Virus record (IMG/VR): IMGVR_UViG_3300037961_003139
Coordinates: 1-34,518 of that record
DNA: 34,518 nt
Origin: a virus
Strand: one strand, 5' to 3'
Positions 9,731 to 32,474 of the stretch are shown here, piece by piece (the first letter of the stretch is position 1; each line of letters begins with the position of its first letter). The notes beneath the pieces are model-generated. The model had not been told where the DNA came from, did no database searches, and worked only from the letters and a program-made list of their open reading frames with translations. Made by a program: the position numbers and the translations under genes.

Positions 9731-10651
9731 ATGGCTAACGAAAATTTAGAAACAATTATAGCAAGAGATAACGATGCAGGACCATTTGGTAGCAGAGATG
9801 CCGTCAAAGAACAGGTATTGCGTGATTTTATTCAACTACAAAGCAAAGTTTTGGCTATCGGAACTGACCTTGTAGGAACAAGAACCGTTCCCTGGTTGGA
9901 ATTCACATGGTATACTGGTGTTAGCGGTGCTTTCACCTACCCAATTGATGATTCCGCAACTGTCGGTGCAACCAAAATCGGAACAAAGAATTATTCAGTC
10001 CAACTAAAGAAAGGTATGGGAAGAGTAACATTCCTTGACTCCACACTACTTCGTGGCGAAACCTTTGAAAACATGAACAGACAACAACTTGGCGTTACTC
10101 AAGCATTGGCTGATACCATTGACAACCTAATTCTAAGTGGACTTCATGCTGGTGCTGGCGATTCCGTTGCTGCTACTGCTGCCTTCGGTTCTTCAACCGC
10201 TGATGAAGAAAAAGACATTCTAAGTGCTGCTGACAAAATCTTCGACTTGGCTCGTGTATCTGGCAACGAAACCCTATCCGTTGTCCTACCTGCTGTAAAG
10301 CGAAGTGCTTTGTTAAACACACAACTATTCGGAAATGTCATTCAATCCCTACAAGACCACCTAAAGGGTGTTTTGGGAATGGACTTCAAGTATACTCGTG
10401 ATGACGGTGGTACTGCCGGAACAGACAGCGCAATCGGTGTAGATGCTCTTGTTATGGTTCCTGGTGCTCAAACCGCTGAATTCTTCCAATACAACGGTGC
10501 TGGATTCAGAGAAACTGAATTGACAAGACTACCTGGTGTTGGGTTTGATTGGATGCTAACTGGCTACATGGGAATGGTTGTTCACGAACATCAAGACGGT
10601 GCTTCCGCTGGTACAACAAAGCGAATCGTTAAGATTACAGGCGTACAGTAA
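9731..10651 (+). CDS. Major capsid protein (HK97 fold)
   Basis: A 306-aa protein of the right size and position for the HK97-fold shell subunit. Features: an N-terminal helix with RDAVKEQVLRDFIQ, a beta-rich region with aromatic/Gly residues (about 55-90) that fits the E-loop, a long helix (about 105-140, ending in LILSGLHAGA) that fits the spine, and a C-terminal domain with VDALVMVPGAQ, a pattern common in the A/P domain. GGTGAT lies five bases before the ATG, an excellent Shine-Dalgarno. By my count 10 of 14 Phe codons are TTC, unlike the TTT-dominated late tail genes, which suggests selection for fast translation. No N-terminal protease-cleaved delta domain is obvious; scaffold may be supplied by the protease gene. 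Confidence 0.87.
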   Translation: MANENLETIIARDNDAGPFGSRDAVKEQVLRDFIQLQSKVLAIGTDLVGTRTVPWLEFTWYTGVSGAFTYPIDDSATVGATKIGTKNYSVQLKKGMGRVTFLDSTLLRGETFENMNRQQLGVTQALADTIDNLILSGLHAGAGDSVAATAAFGSSTADEEKDILSAADKIFDLARVSGNETLSVVLPAVKRSALLNTQLFGNVIQSLQDHLKGVLGMDFKYTRDDGGTAGTDSAIGVDALVMVPGAQTAEFFQYNGAGFRETELTRLPGVGFDWMLTGYMGMVVHEHQDGASAGTTKRIVKITGVQ

Positions 10652-16946: not shown

Positions 16947-17001
16947 CGCAGACTTTAAGTGTGGCTGACTGGTGAACAGTGAGTATTAGGAGTTGTCTAT
17001 T

Positions 17002-18015
17002 ATGGGAGACTTTGACCAGCGTTATGTATCAATCGAAAAAGAATCAACTTATGGAACAGACCCAAGCAGTTCACCTGTATTTGGCGAAATTGACGATGAA
17101 TCATTTAAACACATTTACGAAACTATGGTTCGTGAAGATATGTCTAAGTATGGTGCATCAAAGGTGGTTCGTGGTAAAGAGTATTGTGAAGGTTCTTTGA
17201 ACACCGTTATGATGACCGACCCATTTACTGCTACTATGATTGCTGGTCTATTCGCTACCGATACAGTAACAACAGGTACTCCTAATGTTCACTTGCTTGA
17301 AGAAGGAAATCTAACAACTGACTTTTACCCAACCTTTTCTATACACATTGGTAGAACAGCCAGAGACCACATCTTTACAGGTATGTCTGTAAACAAAATG
17401 TCTGTGTCTGCAAGCGTAGGCGACTTTACTACTATGTCCTTTGAATGTCAAGGAAAGTCTGAAACTACATCACAAGCAACTATGCTAACCCCAACCTTCC
17501 CAGACAACGAACCATGCTACTACGCTAACGCAGAGATTTTCTTTAACGGCAACGCAACAAAGTCTGCTGATGTAAAGTCTTCTGACTTTGAAATCTCAAT
17601 CAACCGTGATTTGGACTCTGGTTTCTCTATTGGAAACTTGACTCTAACACAGGCACCACCTGTAACTCGTAGGTCTATTAGTGGGACTATTGAATTTAAC
17701 AACCCAATGTATGCTGCTACTGCTGACGAACCTTTCTATGATGCTTTGACTCAAGTTGGTGGTGTAAGCGGAACAACCTTCATTTACGATTCAACCGTTG
17801 TTGGTACTCCAGCACTCCGTATGAAGTATATTGAAACAACAAATGCTGACATTACCTTTGATTTCTTTAAGGTTGTATTTGATGCACCTGAAACATCTGT
17901 TTCTGGAAGGGAACATCAAACAATGACAACCCCATTCTTTGCGCTGTTTGATAACACAAACGACTGCATGGTTAGTTGCACAATTAGAAGCGCAACTGCA
18001 GGCGCATACATTTGA
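17002..18015 (+). CDS. Major tail tube protein
   Basis: This is the subunit of the tail tube. 337 aa, beta-rich, with a domain run RYVSIEKESTYGTDP, FTGMSVNKMSVSASVGDFTT and DFEISINRDLDSGF, typical of long-tailed phage tube proteins (two-layer beta-sandwich with a stack of SVNxxxVSA-like strands). The ATG at 17002 is preferred over a TTG nine bases earlier, because AGGAG lies nine bases before it. Codon use is richer in C-ending codons than the following tape measure and hub genes, as in the capsid gene, suggesting high expression. No sheath gene follows, so the tail is probably non-contractile. Confidence 0.82.
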   Translation: MGDFDQRYVSIEKESTYGTDPSSSPVFGEIDDESFKHIYETMVREDMSKYGASKVVRGKEYCEGSLNTVMMTDPFTATMIAGLFATDTVTTGTPNVHLLEEGNLTTDFYPTFSIHIGRTARDHIFTGMSVNKMSVSASVGDFTTMSFECQGKSETTSQATMLTPTFPDNEPCYYANAEIFFNGNATKSADVKSSDFEISINRDLDSGFSIGNLTLTQAPPVTRRSISGTIEFNNPMYAATADEPFYDALTQVGGVSGTTFIYDSTVVGTPALRMKYIETTNADITFDFFKVVFDAPETSVSGREHQTMTTPFFALFDNTNDCMVSCTIRSATAGAYI

Positions 18016-18067
18016 TTAGTATTAGTGTCTTTAAGACAAAGTTTAGTTTAGTAGCGAAGTGAAAAAA

Positions 18068-18430
18068 ATGCCAGTAATGAAAAAAGAATTTGAGTTCGGA
18101 GACGACGAGACAGGAAAAATAAAAGTCGTAGTCCGTCAAGCCAGCGGTTTAGATAGAATGAAATGGGAAGCAGCTCAAGGCCGAGCCTTAAGAAAATTTA
18201 GGGAATACGGGACTGATGTAGAAAATTGGACTGAAGAACAACAGAACAATTTTGTTGAATACCTTGATGAAGAAAATGTCGGTGTTGAAATGCAAATTAC
18301 CGAGTGGATTCCTAAATGTATTGTTGAACCAGAAGACTTTGACTTAGGTATTCTAACCTCTAACGAACTCAGGCAACTCTTGTTGTTTGTAAGGGGTGAT
18401 ACCGCTGATGGTGCTGTCCCTTTGGTCTAA
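18068..18430 (+). CDS. Tail assembly chaperone, short form (gpG-like)
   Basis: 120 aa, acidic, helical. The entry KKEFEFGDDETGKIKVVVRQ and the end with TSNELRQLLLFVRGD fit gpG-like chaperones that coat the tape measure until the tube polymerises. It lies between tube and tape measure genes, the diagnostic place. The ATG at 18068 is preferred over a GTG at 18059, since GTGA sits about six bases before it, as in the capsid gene. A small inverted repeat (TGTCT/AGACA) lies in the gap before it. The gene ends four bases after a -1 slippery heptamer, and the longer product continues in the next frame. Confidence 0.75.
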   Translation: MPVMKKEFEFGDDETGKIKVVVRQASGLDRMKWEAAQGRALRKFREYGTDVENWTEEQQNNFVEYLDEENVGVEMQITEWIPKCIVEPEDFDLGILTSNELRQLLLFVRGDTADGAVPLV

Positions 18431-18678
18431 TTTACAAGGTAGCCCCTGTCTTGTGTCAGGCCTACAAAGGGGTCTTACCTTCAGATTTAGTAGTAAAATA
18501 CTGCGAACCAGGCGGTTATTACCGTATGGAATTAGATTTAGCAGTAGCAGCAGAAATGCAAGACCAAATAGGCGAAGCATCAGAACGAGCCAAGAAAAAG
18601 AAGAATACTGGTTCAAAAGACGCTCGAAGTGCTTGGGCGAAACGCAAGCAAAAGAGAGAATCCATACGGAACGGTTAA
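18068..18678 (+). CDS. Tail assembly chaperone, frameshifted long form (gpGT-like)
   Basis: A -1 shift on the heptamer C CCT TTG (18418-18424) would fuse the 119 codons before it to 84 codons of the overlapping frame, which is open from 18409 and ends at 18678. The added part starts GLIYKVAPVLCQAYKGVLPS, contains a helix with YRMELDLAVAAEMQ and ends in a Lys/Arg-rich tail, as gpT-like parts do. The T frame has no good start of its own (only a TTG at 18451). In lambda and many long-tailed phages the G/GT ratio is set by this type of slippage. The product would be 203 aa. The shift is inferred, not shown. Confidence 0.7.
18418..18424 (+). promoter_or_regulatory. -1 frameshift slippery site CCCTTTG
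   Basis: In the frame of the short chaperone it reads C CCT TTG, an exact X XXY YYZ heptamer. Both tRNAs can re-pair on CCC TTT. The zero-frame stop follows four bases later. A possible stem (GGTA 18438-18441 and CCCC 18443-18446 with GGGG 18469-18472 and TACC 18476-18479) begins 14 bases downstream. Confidence 0.7.
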
Positions 18679-18718
18679 ACGAATATGAGGTTCTTGAGTA
18701 TTAAGAGGGAGTGATAGA

Positions 18719-21700
18719 GTGGCAACCACAGGCGCAGCAATGGTAATGTTTGAAGTGGTTGGTTCATTTCAAGCAAAGCGATTGCTGTCCGATGCAAGGG
18801 CGCAAATGAACATCATGAACGCTATCATGCTTAATGGTCTTTCCGGTATTTTTCAAGCAGTAGACCAAATTACTGAACAAATAGACGGCATGGTTGATGC
18901 TACTGTCCCACTTGCACAAGAATTTGCACAGGCTCGTATTCAATTTGACAAGTTTATGGGAGAAGCCGAAAATCTTGAAGAAGTCAGAGAAGATATAAAG
19001 AAAATAGGTTTAGAATTTGGATTTACTGCTGATAAGGCTCTTGAGGCTGGTGCTAAGATGGCTCAGCTCAAAGATGTAGTAGGTGGTGAAGGTTCAGTTG
19101 TTGCTGCTACTGAAGTTGGTATTAAGTTTGCATTGATTGGTGATATGGAAACTCAAGATGCTATGCAAAAATTAGTGAATTTGCAACAGCAAACCGACTT
19201 TATGTTTGGTGATTTGACTCAATCCCAAATAGAAGCAATGAATGCTGAACAAAGAGCAAACCTTGTTAGGGCAAATTCAATGAAAGTTTTGACACAACTA
19301 AACACGGTTGAAAACAGATCTGCTGCTACAATGCAACAAATTACCTTCATTATGAATCAGTTTGCAAGTCAAGCGAATTTAACAGGCGAATCTATTGCTG
19401 ACATGGCTGCAAATGCGGCTGTATTAGTAGAATCTGGTGAAGAAATGGGTAAAGCAGGTAGGGCTTTGCGTATGATTTATGCTCGTCTTGGTGCTAACAC
19501 TAAAGATAATAATGATGTTTTGGCTCAATTTGGAGTTAGCGTTAAAGATACAGCAGGTAATCTAAGGCCACTATCAGACATTACTGCAGACTTGGCTGAA
19601 AAATTCCCAGATTTGACAGAAGCAGAACAACAGCATATTGCTCAGTTAGTTGCTGGAAATGACCACTATGTAAGATTTATCAAGTTGGTTCAAGGTTCTG
19701 AAAGACAACAAATATTGGCTACTCAGGCTTCTCTTGGTCTATCTGATGCTCAAGAAGAAGTTAATATTAAAATTCAAGACCAAGCAAACCAATTAAAGAA
19801 ACTGCAATCAGAATTAAAGAATACACAAGCAGAAATGGGTAGTGCTTTTATCCCAGCACAAATGAAGGCTACTCAAGCCCAAATATCATTCAATAAGGCA
19901 ATAACCGACCTATACACAACAGGTACTGACCCAATGGGAGAATTAGGAAAGGACTTAAAAGCCATATCAGATTTAGACTTTTCTAATTTTAACATTATTG
20001 ATACTGCTATGGGTTCAATAGTAAAGGGTGGTATAGACTTTGCATTTGCGTTCCAAAGGGTGCAAAAAGTGTTGGGGCCTGTAGTTGAAGCCATGATTAA
20101 CATTAAGTCCTTGAGCGTAGCCATACAAACGCAGCAAACGATAATGAGGGCTATGCAAGGCGAACAATTAGTAAATGCTAATATCTACAATCAAGCAGCA
20201 CAATCTCAAGCATTGACAACTGAATTGGCCTTCCAAGAATTACATGCTCGTGAAAGAATAGGTCAAGCAGGAGCATTAGCACTACAAATAGCAAACGGAG
20301 AAAAAAGTACTCACGACCAAAAATTAATTTCTATGCACGCTCAAAATTCTGCTGCTACAACTCTTAACGACCTCGCAAAACAAAGACACAATTTGGCAGC
20401 TCAAATAGGTAATTTAGAACAAAATATGCTTAATGTTGTTCAACAAGCAGATGCAGCTCAAAAGAATATTAATGCTACTATTAGAGCAAGAGCAGCAGCA
20501 AGTGCTACATTGTCAGCACAAGAATTACAAGTGCTTGGTCAAAAAGTTTCTTTGCTAACTAACGAAGCAATGCAAAGTCAAATAAAGATAGAAACTATGA
20601 AGAATGAACATGCTATGGCGTTGGCTACTGTTCAAGCAGGAAATGTAAAAGTTAGGAACGCTTACAAAGAAAAAGAATTGTTAGAAGAATTAATCCAACT
20701 TGGATTTATTGAAAAAGAAACAGTAACTGCTCTACAACAAGACAAAAGAAGGTCATTAGAAATTGATAGACAGCAATTACAAATAGCAAGAAATAACATT
20801 GCTTTAAGAGCATTAGAAGCAGAATTAGCAGATGAATTAGGGATTCAACAACTTGGTAATATGATTCAAAGATTAGTGCAAAGCCAATTGGCTAATCAAG
20901 AATTAGGAAAAAGTATTACTTTAACAGAACAAATGAATTCTCTTGGTGAACAAGAAAGACTTATAATAAATTCAGTTACAAGCGGTAAATTCATAAAAAA
21001 TGAATTGACTGATGCTGAAGTAACTGCTCTACAAGTTTTGCTACCGTTATTAAAACAACAAAACATAACTTCAGAAGCACAAGCACAAAATCTATATGAA
21101 ATTATTTTGGCTCAAGTACAATACAATGCTACTCAAGATGTATTGATGCAAAAGCAAATGGCTACAAACGCTTCAATGACTAAATACAGCGCTCTTTTGG
21201 GAGGTGCGTCTGGACTAATTACTTTATTTGACGATTCAACTAAAGGTGCTAAAGCAAGTATGGCGTTAATGGTGCCTGTAATGATTATGAGCACAATACA
21301 AATGATACAAATGACAAATAGTATGGTAAATCAAGCAACTCAAGCAGTTAAAGGCTCTGTTGCAAATACAGGTTATGCCTTTTCGTTTAAGGCTGTTGGT
21401 GCAGCAGCATCTCAAGCAGCAACTGCTGTTAAAGGATTTATGGCCAGCACAGGCGTTGGTCTTATCGCTATTGCTGCGATTACCGCTGCAGTATATATGT
21501 TTAGTGATGGTTCTGAAGAAGCAGCAGCATCTATTATAGTGATGAATAATGCTATGACAGACAGTCTATCAATTATTCAAGATTTACAAAGCACCGGATT
21601 AGATGAAACTTTATCAGACATACCAATAGCAGTTCAAAGTGCGCTTGAAGCAGCAGGAATTAGCGACTTTGCTAATATAGCACAAATGAACATGGCAGAA

Positions 21701-22726
21701 TTAGAAAATGTTATAGCAATAACAGCAGACGAAATAAAAAGACTTACTGAATTAGCAGGTGATGGAGAAACAGTACAAGAAAGGCTATTTCAAACTCAAT
21801 TAGATGCTGCAAATAAATACATAGGAGCATTGAAAACTCAAGAAACTCTTTTGATTTCACAATTAGCACTATCTGGAGATTTATCGTCATTGAATGAAAA
21901 GAATTTAAGAATGTCAGGTGATAATGCTGCAAGCGTTCTTCAGCAACTTGAAAATGAATTCGGAGATGACTTTGGGGACATAAACGCAAGAGGATTTTTT
22001 GGATATTCAAGAGGGGACTTAGAAGATGATGTAGGTAAGTCAGCACATGATGCTGCTGGTGCTCTTATTTTTGCCTTTGAACAAGAATTAGGCAAAGAAA
22101 TGTCAAGAGCGAACATAGAAGATTTGCTTGAAGTGCTTACTCACACTGGTTTAGACCACATGACTGGTTTGAGTGCCTACGAAGAACATATTAGAGATTC
22201 AGGTAAATATACTGGACAATTTATGGAATTTTTAGAAGGTTTAAGAGATGTATCTGAAGAAACATCAATCGGATTAGACATATTATCGCTTTCTATGAAT
22301 GATTTGGGCGATTTTGAAACAGAAGACCTTTCAGATTATACAGATGTCGTTGAAAAATTAAGAAACAATTTTAATATGACAGAAGATAGCGCACAAACTC
22401 TTGTTGATATAATAGGAGAAATGGGTTCAGATTCAGGACCTATTGATGAAACTGCCGAATCAATAGAACATTTGGGACAAACAATGGCAGAATTTAACAA
22501 CAATCGTGAAGCCATGTTCTTTGGACTTTCACAATCAGGCGCAACAGGAGACTTTGTTAAGCAAGTGCAACAAAAAGGCGTTGAAAATTTAGTAGCAAAC
22601 ACCGAATTGATAATAACCAATAACTTTAATGGTATGTTGCTACATGAAATGGTTACTGAAGTTACTGAAGGAGTGATAGAAAATCTGGTGAATGCCGGAG
22701 TAGTGCAAGCAGGAGCAGTGGGTTAA
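18719..22726 (+). CDS. Tape measure protein
   Basis: A 1335-aa, Ala/Gln/Glu-rich and mostly helical protein directly after the chaperones. It fixes tail length and is ejected with the DNA. The N-terminal 330 residues carry the usual conserved block (for example GFTADKALEAGAKMAQL and MRMIYARLGA-like LRMIYARLGANTKD). A very long coiled-coil part follows (about 330-830). Two hydrophobic stretches at about 848-870 (MVPVMIMSTIQMIQMT) and 912-928 (GVGLIAIAAITAAVYMF) could enter the host membrane. At about 1.5 angstrom per residue the tail would be near 200 nm. It starts at a GTG with GGGAGTGAT three bases before it. Confidence 0.92.
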   Translation: MATTGAAMVMFEVVGSFQAKRLLSDARAQMNIMNAIMLNGLSGIFQAVDQITEQIDGMVDATVPLAQEFAQARIQFDKFMGEAENLEEVREDIKKIGLEFGFTADKALEAGAKMAQLKDVVGGEGSVVAATEVGIKFALIGDMETQDAMQKLVNLQQQTDFMFGDLTQSQIEAMNAEQRANLVRANSMKVLTQLNTVENRSAATMQQITFIMNQFASQANLTGESIADMAANAAVLVESGEEMGKAGRALRMIYARLGANTKDNNDVLAQFGVSVKDTAGNLRPLSDITADLAEKFPDLTEAEQQHIAQLVAGNDHYVRFIKLVQGSERQQILATQASLGLSDAQEEVNIKIQDQANQLKKLQSELKNTQAEMGSAFIPAQMKATQAQISFNKAITDLYTTGTDPMGELGKDLKAISDLDFSNFNIIDTAMGSIVKGGIDFAFAFQRVQKVLGPVVEAMINIKSLSVAIQTQQTIMRAMQGEQLVNANIYNQAAQSQALTTELAFQELHARERIGQAGALALQIANGEKSTHDQKLISMHAQNSAATTLNDLAKQRHNLAAQIGNLEQNMLNVVQQADAAQKNINATIRARAAASATLSAQELQVLGQKVSLLTNEAMQSQIKIETMKNEHAMALATVQAGNVKVRNAYKEKELLEELIQLGFIEKETVTALQQDKRRSLEIDRQQLQIARNNIALRALEAELADELGIQQLGNMIQRLVQSQLANQELGKSITLTEQMNSLGEQERLIINSVTSGKFIKNELTDAEVTALQVLLPLLKQQNITSEAQAQNLYEIILAQVQYNATQDVLMQKQMATNASMTKYSALLGGASGLITLFDDSTKGAKASMALMVPVMIMSTIQMIQMTNSMVNQATQAVKGSVANTGYAFSFKAVGAAASQAATAVKGFMASTGVGLIAIAAITAAVYMFSDGSEEAAASIIVMNNAMTDSLSIIQDLQSTGLDETLSDIPIAVQSALEAAGISDFANIAQMNMAELENVIAITADEIKRLTELAGDGETVQERLFQTQLDAANKYIGALKTQETLLISQLALSGDLSSLNEKNLRMSGDNAASVLQQLENEFGDDFGDINARGFFGYSRGDLEDDVGKSAHDAAGALIFAFEQELGKEMSRANIEDLLEVLTHTGLDHMTGLSAYEEHIRDSGKYTGQFMEFLEGLRDVSEETSIGLDILSLSMNDLGDFETEDLSDYTDVVEKLRNNFNMTEDSAQTLVDIIGEMGSDSGPIDETAESIEHLGQTMAEFNNNREAMFFGLSQSGATGDFVKQVQQKGVENLVANTELIITNNFNGMLLHEMVTEVTEGVIENLVNAGVVQAGAVG

Positions 22727-31436: not shown

Positions 31437-32474
31437 TCACACTTCCATAGTCCCATCGTCTCTCCAACAACTGCCTTTACACCAGCCTCTGCGTTGTATT
31501 ACCCTACAACTTGGAGGATTCTTAAGTCTTATCAAAGACCTTACTGCCTTGCGAGTTATTGAAGCGTTATAGTCAATCCAATTCAGCGTTTCAATGTAAG
31601 AACAGATTGAATCTTCTATTTCTTGCTGTTGTTCATCGGATATAGTGTCTGGGTCTGCAAACCAACGCATATTGTGAGCCATCTCAGTTACCAGAAATAT
31701 TCTTGCCTGATGTTCAGGGTTTGGTTGCTTGATTGTGCTATTGATACAGGGTGGTAGAGGGACTTCGCCTGCAAGCCCAACGGAAAATGCCCCACAAATG
31801 CGTTCTACGGGCTTTGTTTGCTTTGGGTGGGTATTGACCCAATCAACCAAATTAAACGCCATAGAAGCCACAGGAATGCCTAAAAACGGGCAATAATCTT
31901 TAGGGGCTTCGGAAGGGTGGGAAGGAATAGAATAATCATGTGGATTTTTCATAAATTCATGGGTGTCAATCATAACAGCCCAGCGTTTGCGAGATGGATT
32001 GTATGTATTAGGAATACGGGTCAATTTTTCAGCATAACCAATACCGTCAAGCGACCTCAAGCCTTCAGCCATCTTTGCTTCATAGCGTTGTAATTCCGCA
32101 GACCAATGCACACCACTAACAGTTTGTGAGAACATTTGGTGAACATGAAACCCACGACCTGTCGCAACTACTCTTACATCAGAATCAGGGTAGTCCTCGT
32201 AAATCCTTCGTATTAGCAAGGCAACATCATCTTTGACCTCAGGCATTTGAACACCGTTCTTCCCTAAGTCAAAATCCCACCATGCTCTATCTATCAAAGC
32301 AGTTGAATAGTCCGGTCTATTATCAGGATTGAGTTTAGTGAAGGCGTATAGGGAAGTGTAGCACGAGGATTTACTACCCAAAACAGACAAATATTTGTCA
32401 AATTCCCTTTGACTATAACACATTGACCTCTTGAGGCCTATTTGTCTGGGAAATTGCATCTGCATAGTAATCAT
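31437..32474 (-). CDS. Archaeo-eukaryotic primase fused to a PriL-like Fe-S domain
   Basis: 345 aa. The catalytic part shows the AEP motifs: WWDFD (65-69, metal-binding D67 and D69), TGRGFHVH (105-112, the second motif with H110) and RIPNTYNPSRKRW (153-165) followed by D170. The C-terminal 120 residues resemble the PriL C-terminal domain: PPC at 241-243, then a helical region with EHQARIFLVTEMAHN, then PPSC (320-323), WC (332) and C336, four cysteines able to hold a 4Fe-4S cluster. Thus PriS-like and PriL-like functions sit in one chain, as in the PolpTN2 plasmid primase. It would lay primers for the viral PolB. Its ATG overlaps the stop of the zinc-ribbon gene (ATGA). Confidence 0.87.
   Translation of the reverse strand: MITMQMQFPRQIGLKRSMCYSQREFDKYLSVLGSKSSCYTSLYAFTKLNPDNRPDYSTALIDRAWWDFDLGKNGVQMPEVKDDVALLIRRIYEDYPDSDVRVVATGRGFHVHQMFSQTVSGVHWSAELQRYEAKMAEGLRSLDGIGYAEKLTRIPNTYNPSRKRWAVMIDTHEFMKNPHDYSIPSHPSEAPKDYCPFLGIPVASMAFNLVDWVNTHPKQTKPVERICGAFSVGLAGEVPLPPCINSTIKQPNPEHQARIFLVTEMAHNMRWFADPDTISDEQQQEIEDSICSYIETLNWIDYNASITRKAVRSLIRLKNPPSCRVIQRRGWCKGSCWRDDGTMEV

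Follow-up and report, generated by a model that had tools for sequence, protein, structure and literature searches.

To our knowledge, documented cases of programmed frameshifting on archaeal ribosomes are few: a single cellular gene, plus a small number of predictions in haloarchaeal viruses. In the tail-assembly chaperone genes, -1 frameshifts have been predicted for HVTV-1, HCTV-1, -2 and -5 and Hardycor1 (PMC8211752, PMC5009743, PMC7911831), a +1 version has been reported for HSTV-2 (PMC8211752), and a +1 version has been suggested for HF1-type viruses (PMC7230728). The related system of bacteria is the gpG/gpGT pair of phage lambda, one of the long-tailed double-stranded DNA phages in which a short open reading frame (ORF) with a -1 extension lies between the tail tube and tape measure genes and carries an X_XXY_YYZ slippery site just before its stop (PMC5009743). 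Here we describe a comparable locus in the IMG/VR virus record IMGVR_UViG_3300037961_003139, where two small overlapping ORFs, G and T, meet at the heptamer C CCT TTG; the whole stretch of 34,518 nucleotides (nt) that was analysed is called the window. The frame relation, the conservation of the site and the selection acting in relatives strongly support the original prediction that a -1 frameshift joins two tail chaperone genes. To judge from the sequences, programmed -1 ribosomal frameshifting that yields G and GT tail-assembly chaperones is clearly the best explanation, and we consider it very probably correct.

The features of the locus, by position in the window, are the following.

18068..18430, + strand: G, a short tail-assembly-chaperone-like ORF in the 0 frame, 120 amino acids, starting at ATG 18068 (alternative GTG start at 18059)
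18418..18424, + strand: candidate slippery heptamer C CCT TTG (X_XXY_YYZ), placed by a frame check and conserved in relatives
18409..18430, + strand: overlap of both frames, 22 nt, within which the -1 shift must fall
18424..18678, + strand: T, the -1-frame extension, 84 amino acids, modelled as all-helical with a Lys/Arg-rich C-terminal end, predicted to be fused to G by the shift
18442..18473, + strand: possible stem, GCCCCU 18442-18447 with AGGGGU 18468-18473, a fold with moderate support

In the frame of G the junction reads GTC CCT TTG GTC TAA, the stop TAA occupying 18428-18430. The heptamer is present and in frame exactly as claimed, although three bases, not the four originally counted, separate it from this stop. 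The -1 frame opens at 18409, after TGA 18406-18408, and ends at the stop 18676-18678; the frame check agrees with the open frame that had been proposed, and translation across the slip gives the join peptide AVPLGLIYK, as expected. Of the 7627 codon positions in the main ORFs of the window, 42 hold an in-frame X_XXY_YYZ (0.55% per codon), and the chance of finding one in the overlap of a single sequence, about five codons long, would be about 3%. Because the heptamer alone is only mildly improbable, the case rests on conservation in relatives. The string CCCTTTG is found 12 times in the window (3 copies on the + strand and 9 on the - strand); its reversed control is absent.

Relatives were collected by scanning IMG/VR with profiles of G and T, using search patterns that exclude the motif region. 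The set carrying both ORFs comprises 208 loci, which represent 100 distinct sequences and 79 clusters at 90% nucleotide identity, and in which the identity of G to that of the window falls to about 42%. T occupies the -1 frame relative to G at all 208 loci. The junction is C CCT TTG in 47 clusters, C CCT TTT in 14 and C CCT TTA in 8 (C CCT TTN in 69 altogether); the remainder carry A/G CCT TTT (7 clusters), G/A CAT TTT (2) or T TTT TTG (1). Aligning related viruses, a check that the original prediction had proposed, thus finds a canonical heptamer kept complete in 70 of the 79 clusters and the T_TTN core in every one, which places the junction far above chance. One chance match was rejected as a relative (L006). 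Searches of the GTDB genomes recovered no relatives, and neither did searches of INPHARED by DNA or by protein for G and for the ORF at 9731-10651.

Codon usage at the motif is equally constrained. The Pro codon of the motif is CCT in 76 of 76 clusters, the sole invariant codon among 113 conserved degenerate codon columns (background 0.41), and where the A-site codon specifies Leu it is TTG or TTA in 55 of 55 clusters and never CTN. The stop of G lies anywhere from 0 to 9 codons past the motif among the 79 clusters, whereas the motif is fixed relative to the alignment of T, so the motif is tied to T and not to the stop. In the single lineage L091 the CCC has been lost and another canonical heptamer, T_TTT_TTG, replaces C_CCT_TTN at the junction; a stop in the -1 frame immediately precedes it, so that the shift has to fall on the run of T or just past this run.

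Both frames are coding and under purifying selection. The third codon position of the -1 frame is the most divergent (0.32/0.29/0.52 for the three positions in the set closest to the window, 0.29/0.20/0.57 overall), and the ratio of non-synonymous to synonymous substitution rates (dN/dS) for T in this frame is about 0.06-0.23 in the 7 pairs, out of 8, that yielded an estimate, among them 0.15 and 0.12 for the two such pairs that involve the window; the selection extends to the residues just behind the motif. The third frame is open from 18396 to 18704 in the window, but we rejected it as coding because 3-19 stops interrupt it in the relatives that do not belong to the small group of the window.

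Could T instead be a separate protein, made from an internal start or by ribosomes that reinitiate beyond the stop of G, with CCCTTTG incidental? A T-frame TTG does occur at 18451 in the window, an ATG falls within the first 14 T codons in 54 of the 79 clusters, and one public library of structures lists a T-like protein on its own. In the window itself, however, this region is without ATG or GTG in the T frame, and the TTG belongs to the best-conserved block, in which CTN is the usual choice among relatives. The residues V, A and P shortly after the motif are conserved while their codons vary, and no start codon is conserved there; the stretch between the motif and the TTG is therefore translated, which internal initiation does not explain, as the window is without an ATG or GTG in this stretch. 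A separate T would also leave the invariance of the CCT-TTN codons unexplained, and we regard it as very unlikely. Slippage of RNA polymerase rather than the ribosome might join the frames as well, and a few relatives do have six consecutive T residues, but the window offers runs of three only (CCC and TTT), and ordinary slippage by the polymerase needs longer ones. Homopolymer-run slippage is a known alternative (PMC5009743); the element that is kept, however, is defined by the codon frame of G (X_XXY_YYZ or T_TTN) in all clusters, and transcription is blind to frame, which makes this explanation less probable still. That a sequencing indel or gene decay split one ORF in two would be conceivable for a single metagenome contig such as the window, but many assemblies contribute to the 100 distinct sequences that share the arrangement, and selection is purifying in both of the frames, which already refutes this idea; its probability is negligible.

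Under programmed -1 ribosomal frameshifting, the slippage itself, its efficiency, the mechanics of the tRNAs and the functions of the proteins would be as follows. Most ribosomes would translate G and terminate at the TAA at 18428. A minority would slip back one base on C_CCU_UUG, the tRNAs re-pairing on CCC and UUU, and would enter the -1 frame to make the G-T fusion. By analogy with gpG/gpGT of phage lambda, whose slippery site is reportedly G_GGA_AAG, the G part would coat the tape measure protein and the T part would recruit the tail tube protein, and the slip may set the G:GT ratio and so control tail assembly.

Some observations weigh against this interpretation. No annotated tail-chaperone family is recognized by profile, neither G nor T having a significant Pfam or PHROG match. 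Among 350,542 PDB chains, the neighbours of the AlphaFold model of G (pLDDT 89; a beta hairpin and helices) are headed by the HK97 tail chaperone 2ob9, followed by PICI ORF19 (5ir0) in second place and YqbN (3klu) in eighth, with E = 0.6-1.8 and TM scores of about 0.3 that are not statistically significant; at such E values the likeness of G to the tail-chaperone fold is just a lead. The stem in the window is 17 nt away from the heptamer and conserved only in part, and the P-site triplet of the heptamer is incomplete in 11 of the 100 distinct sequences, or 9 of the 79 clusters. The model of T (pLDDT 85) is all helical with a Lys/Arg-rich C-terminal end, in keeping with the helical, Lys-rich -1 part that had been described.

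The stem that was claimed downstream of the heptamer does exist as a fold, but its support is moderate, and a stimulatory structure of this kind is not a universal part of such frameshift sites: the synonymous-shuffle z is just -1.5 in the window, and over 56 other clusters the stem is 73% paired, with 25 double-changed cells where 16.3 are expected. The clade whose A-site codon is TTT (the T_TTT clade) has a stem of 14 pairs that begins 5 nt after the motif and is 97.8% paired. Covariation in this stem amounts to 13 double-changed cells against 4.5 expected, a level reached in 0 of 500 shuffles, and slid versions score far lower. The synonymous-shuffle z of the region is -1.5 to -1.7, the strongest along the gene, two other stretches reaching about -1.3. 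We also observed that the heptamer at 18418-18424 is perfectly complementary to CAAAGGG at 18465-18471, about 40 nt downstream, and RNAalifold pairs the slippery site with the CAAAGG region in clusters outside the T_TTT clade. Since the protein itself accounts for the invariance of the K-G codons involved, this pairing is not interpretable as a structure signal. An upstream Shine-Dalgarno-like sequence, AAGGGGTGAT, was rejected as a stimulator: it lies about 21 nt away, and its Arg codon is AGG in just 6 of 31 clusters.

The losses of the P-site triplet were not scattered among the relatives. All 11 sequences with an incomplete triplet fall in the T_TTT clade, whereas none of the 73 sequences with TTG or TTA as the A-site codon has lost it. 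In a phylogeny from which the motif columns had been left out, there were at least about 8 changes between the intact and lost states, regains not being told apart from losses, and all of them lie within this clade, which holds 17% of the total branch length. The probability that all would fall in one such clade is 0.17^8, or about 6e-7, a rough estimate that takes no account of errors in the model. Relatives with both frames and no slippery site had been named as counter-evidence; such evidence was found in part, in the 11 sequences, which lack the complete heptamer and all keep the T_TTT core. Because these sequences also belong to one clade, they represent relaxation rather than absence of the site.

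In nearly all cases of -1 frameshifting, the tetranucleotide Z_ZZN constitutes the minimal site (PMC5009743). Since U_UUU allows perfect re-pairing of the A-site tRNA, a loosened P-site triplet would be understandable in this clade. Across the alignment, slipperiness of the A site is kept in all sequences, and the P-site triplet appears to be dispensable solely when the A-site codon is UUU. We tentatively propose, as a scenario somewhat short of even probability, that the A-site codon turned to UUU in one clade and that the P-site triplet was then lost repeatedly (A/G/U_CCU_UUU, G/A_CAU_UUU) while the covarying stem was kept; on ribosomes that are probably archaeal, the slippage of two tRNAs on a heptamer would thereby have given way to that of the A-site tRNA alone on U_UUU. 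With about 100 natural variants of one site, the data set is large enough to show which positions matter.

G and T stand within a standard tailed-virus module that includes a terminase (Terminase_6C) and a portal protein (Phage_portal), and they occupy the space between the following two genes.

16993..18015, + strand: tail tube (major tail) protein (Phage_tube_2, PF18906, E = 4e-21; phrog_290)
18719..22726, + strand: tape measure protein (PhageMin_Tail, PF10145, E = 2e-18; several tape-measure PHROGs)

In every sufficiently long relative the tail tube gene is found 5' of G/T (50 loci) and the tape measure gene 3' (45 loci). Elsewhere in the window, 31437-32474 on the - strand encodes a 344-amino-acid protein with DFD and TGRGFHVH motifs; profile searches against Pfam, PHROG and PDB gave no match for it, and the motifs are reminiscent of archaeo-eukaryotic primases.

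Gene content suggests, with fair confidence, that the host is an archaeon and that the virus resembles the magroviruses. Relatives encode a family B DNA polymerase (PolB), a GroEL-type chaperonin, an ERCC4/Hef-like nuclease and PD-(D/E)XK nucleases, and one has an RFC-like AAA protein; the window carries an ERCC4/Hef-like nuclease of its own (best NCBIfam match Hef), while neither GroEL nor PolB was seen in it, the window possibly being incomplete. The chaperonins in two relatives (L059:1492-3024 and L064:2774-4294) are bacterial-type (group I) GroEL-like proteins, not thermosomes. Searches of the contigs, which include fragments, found neither PCNA nor transcription factor B (TFIIB), and the match to MCM was weak. 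The claim of an archaeal virus is thus favoured by the gene content of the relatives, which fits magroviruses, but it is not proven, given that PCNA and TFIIB were not found. A reference genome of the magroviruses, which are viruses of Poseidoniales, encodes GroEL, PolB, RFC-S and an annotated tail assembly chaperone (PMC10768690).

Comparison with known systems places the locus as follows. With Magrovirales such as Aoguangviridae (PMC10768690) the likeness is one of gene content: a marine setting and, in relatives, PolB, GroEL and an RFC-like clamp loader. Unlike the Aoguangviridae reference (PMC10768690), the searched contigs measure 18-68 kb, versus 90-110 kb, and yielded no PCNA or TFIIB. 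We found no description of a tail-chaperone frameshift in magroviruses in the open literature, subscription papers lying outside the search. T, which has no conserved start codon, is easily missed in annotation or called as a separate gene. The arrangement and the place of the slippery site are those of lambda and the other long-tailed phages, but there is no detectable sequence homology to lambda, the site here is C_CCU_UUN, and the host is probably archaeal. The locus shares its genomic position, the direction of the frameshift and, probably, an archaeal host with HVTV-1, HCTV-1/-2/-5 and Hardycor1; the site here is C_CCU_UUN, and its comparative support is far deeper than for these haloarchaeal viruses. 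It had been judged worth recording as a probable archaeal example, and it is a well-supported new one, though not a first, haloarchaeal -1 cases having already been reported. On the evidence of these alignments, it is a known type of frameshift in a new example with unusually deep comparative support.
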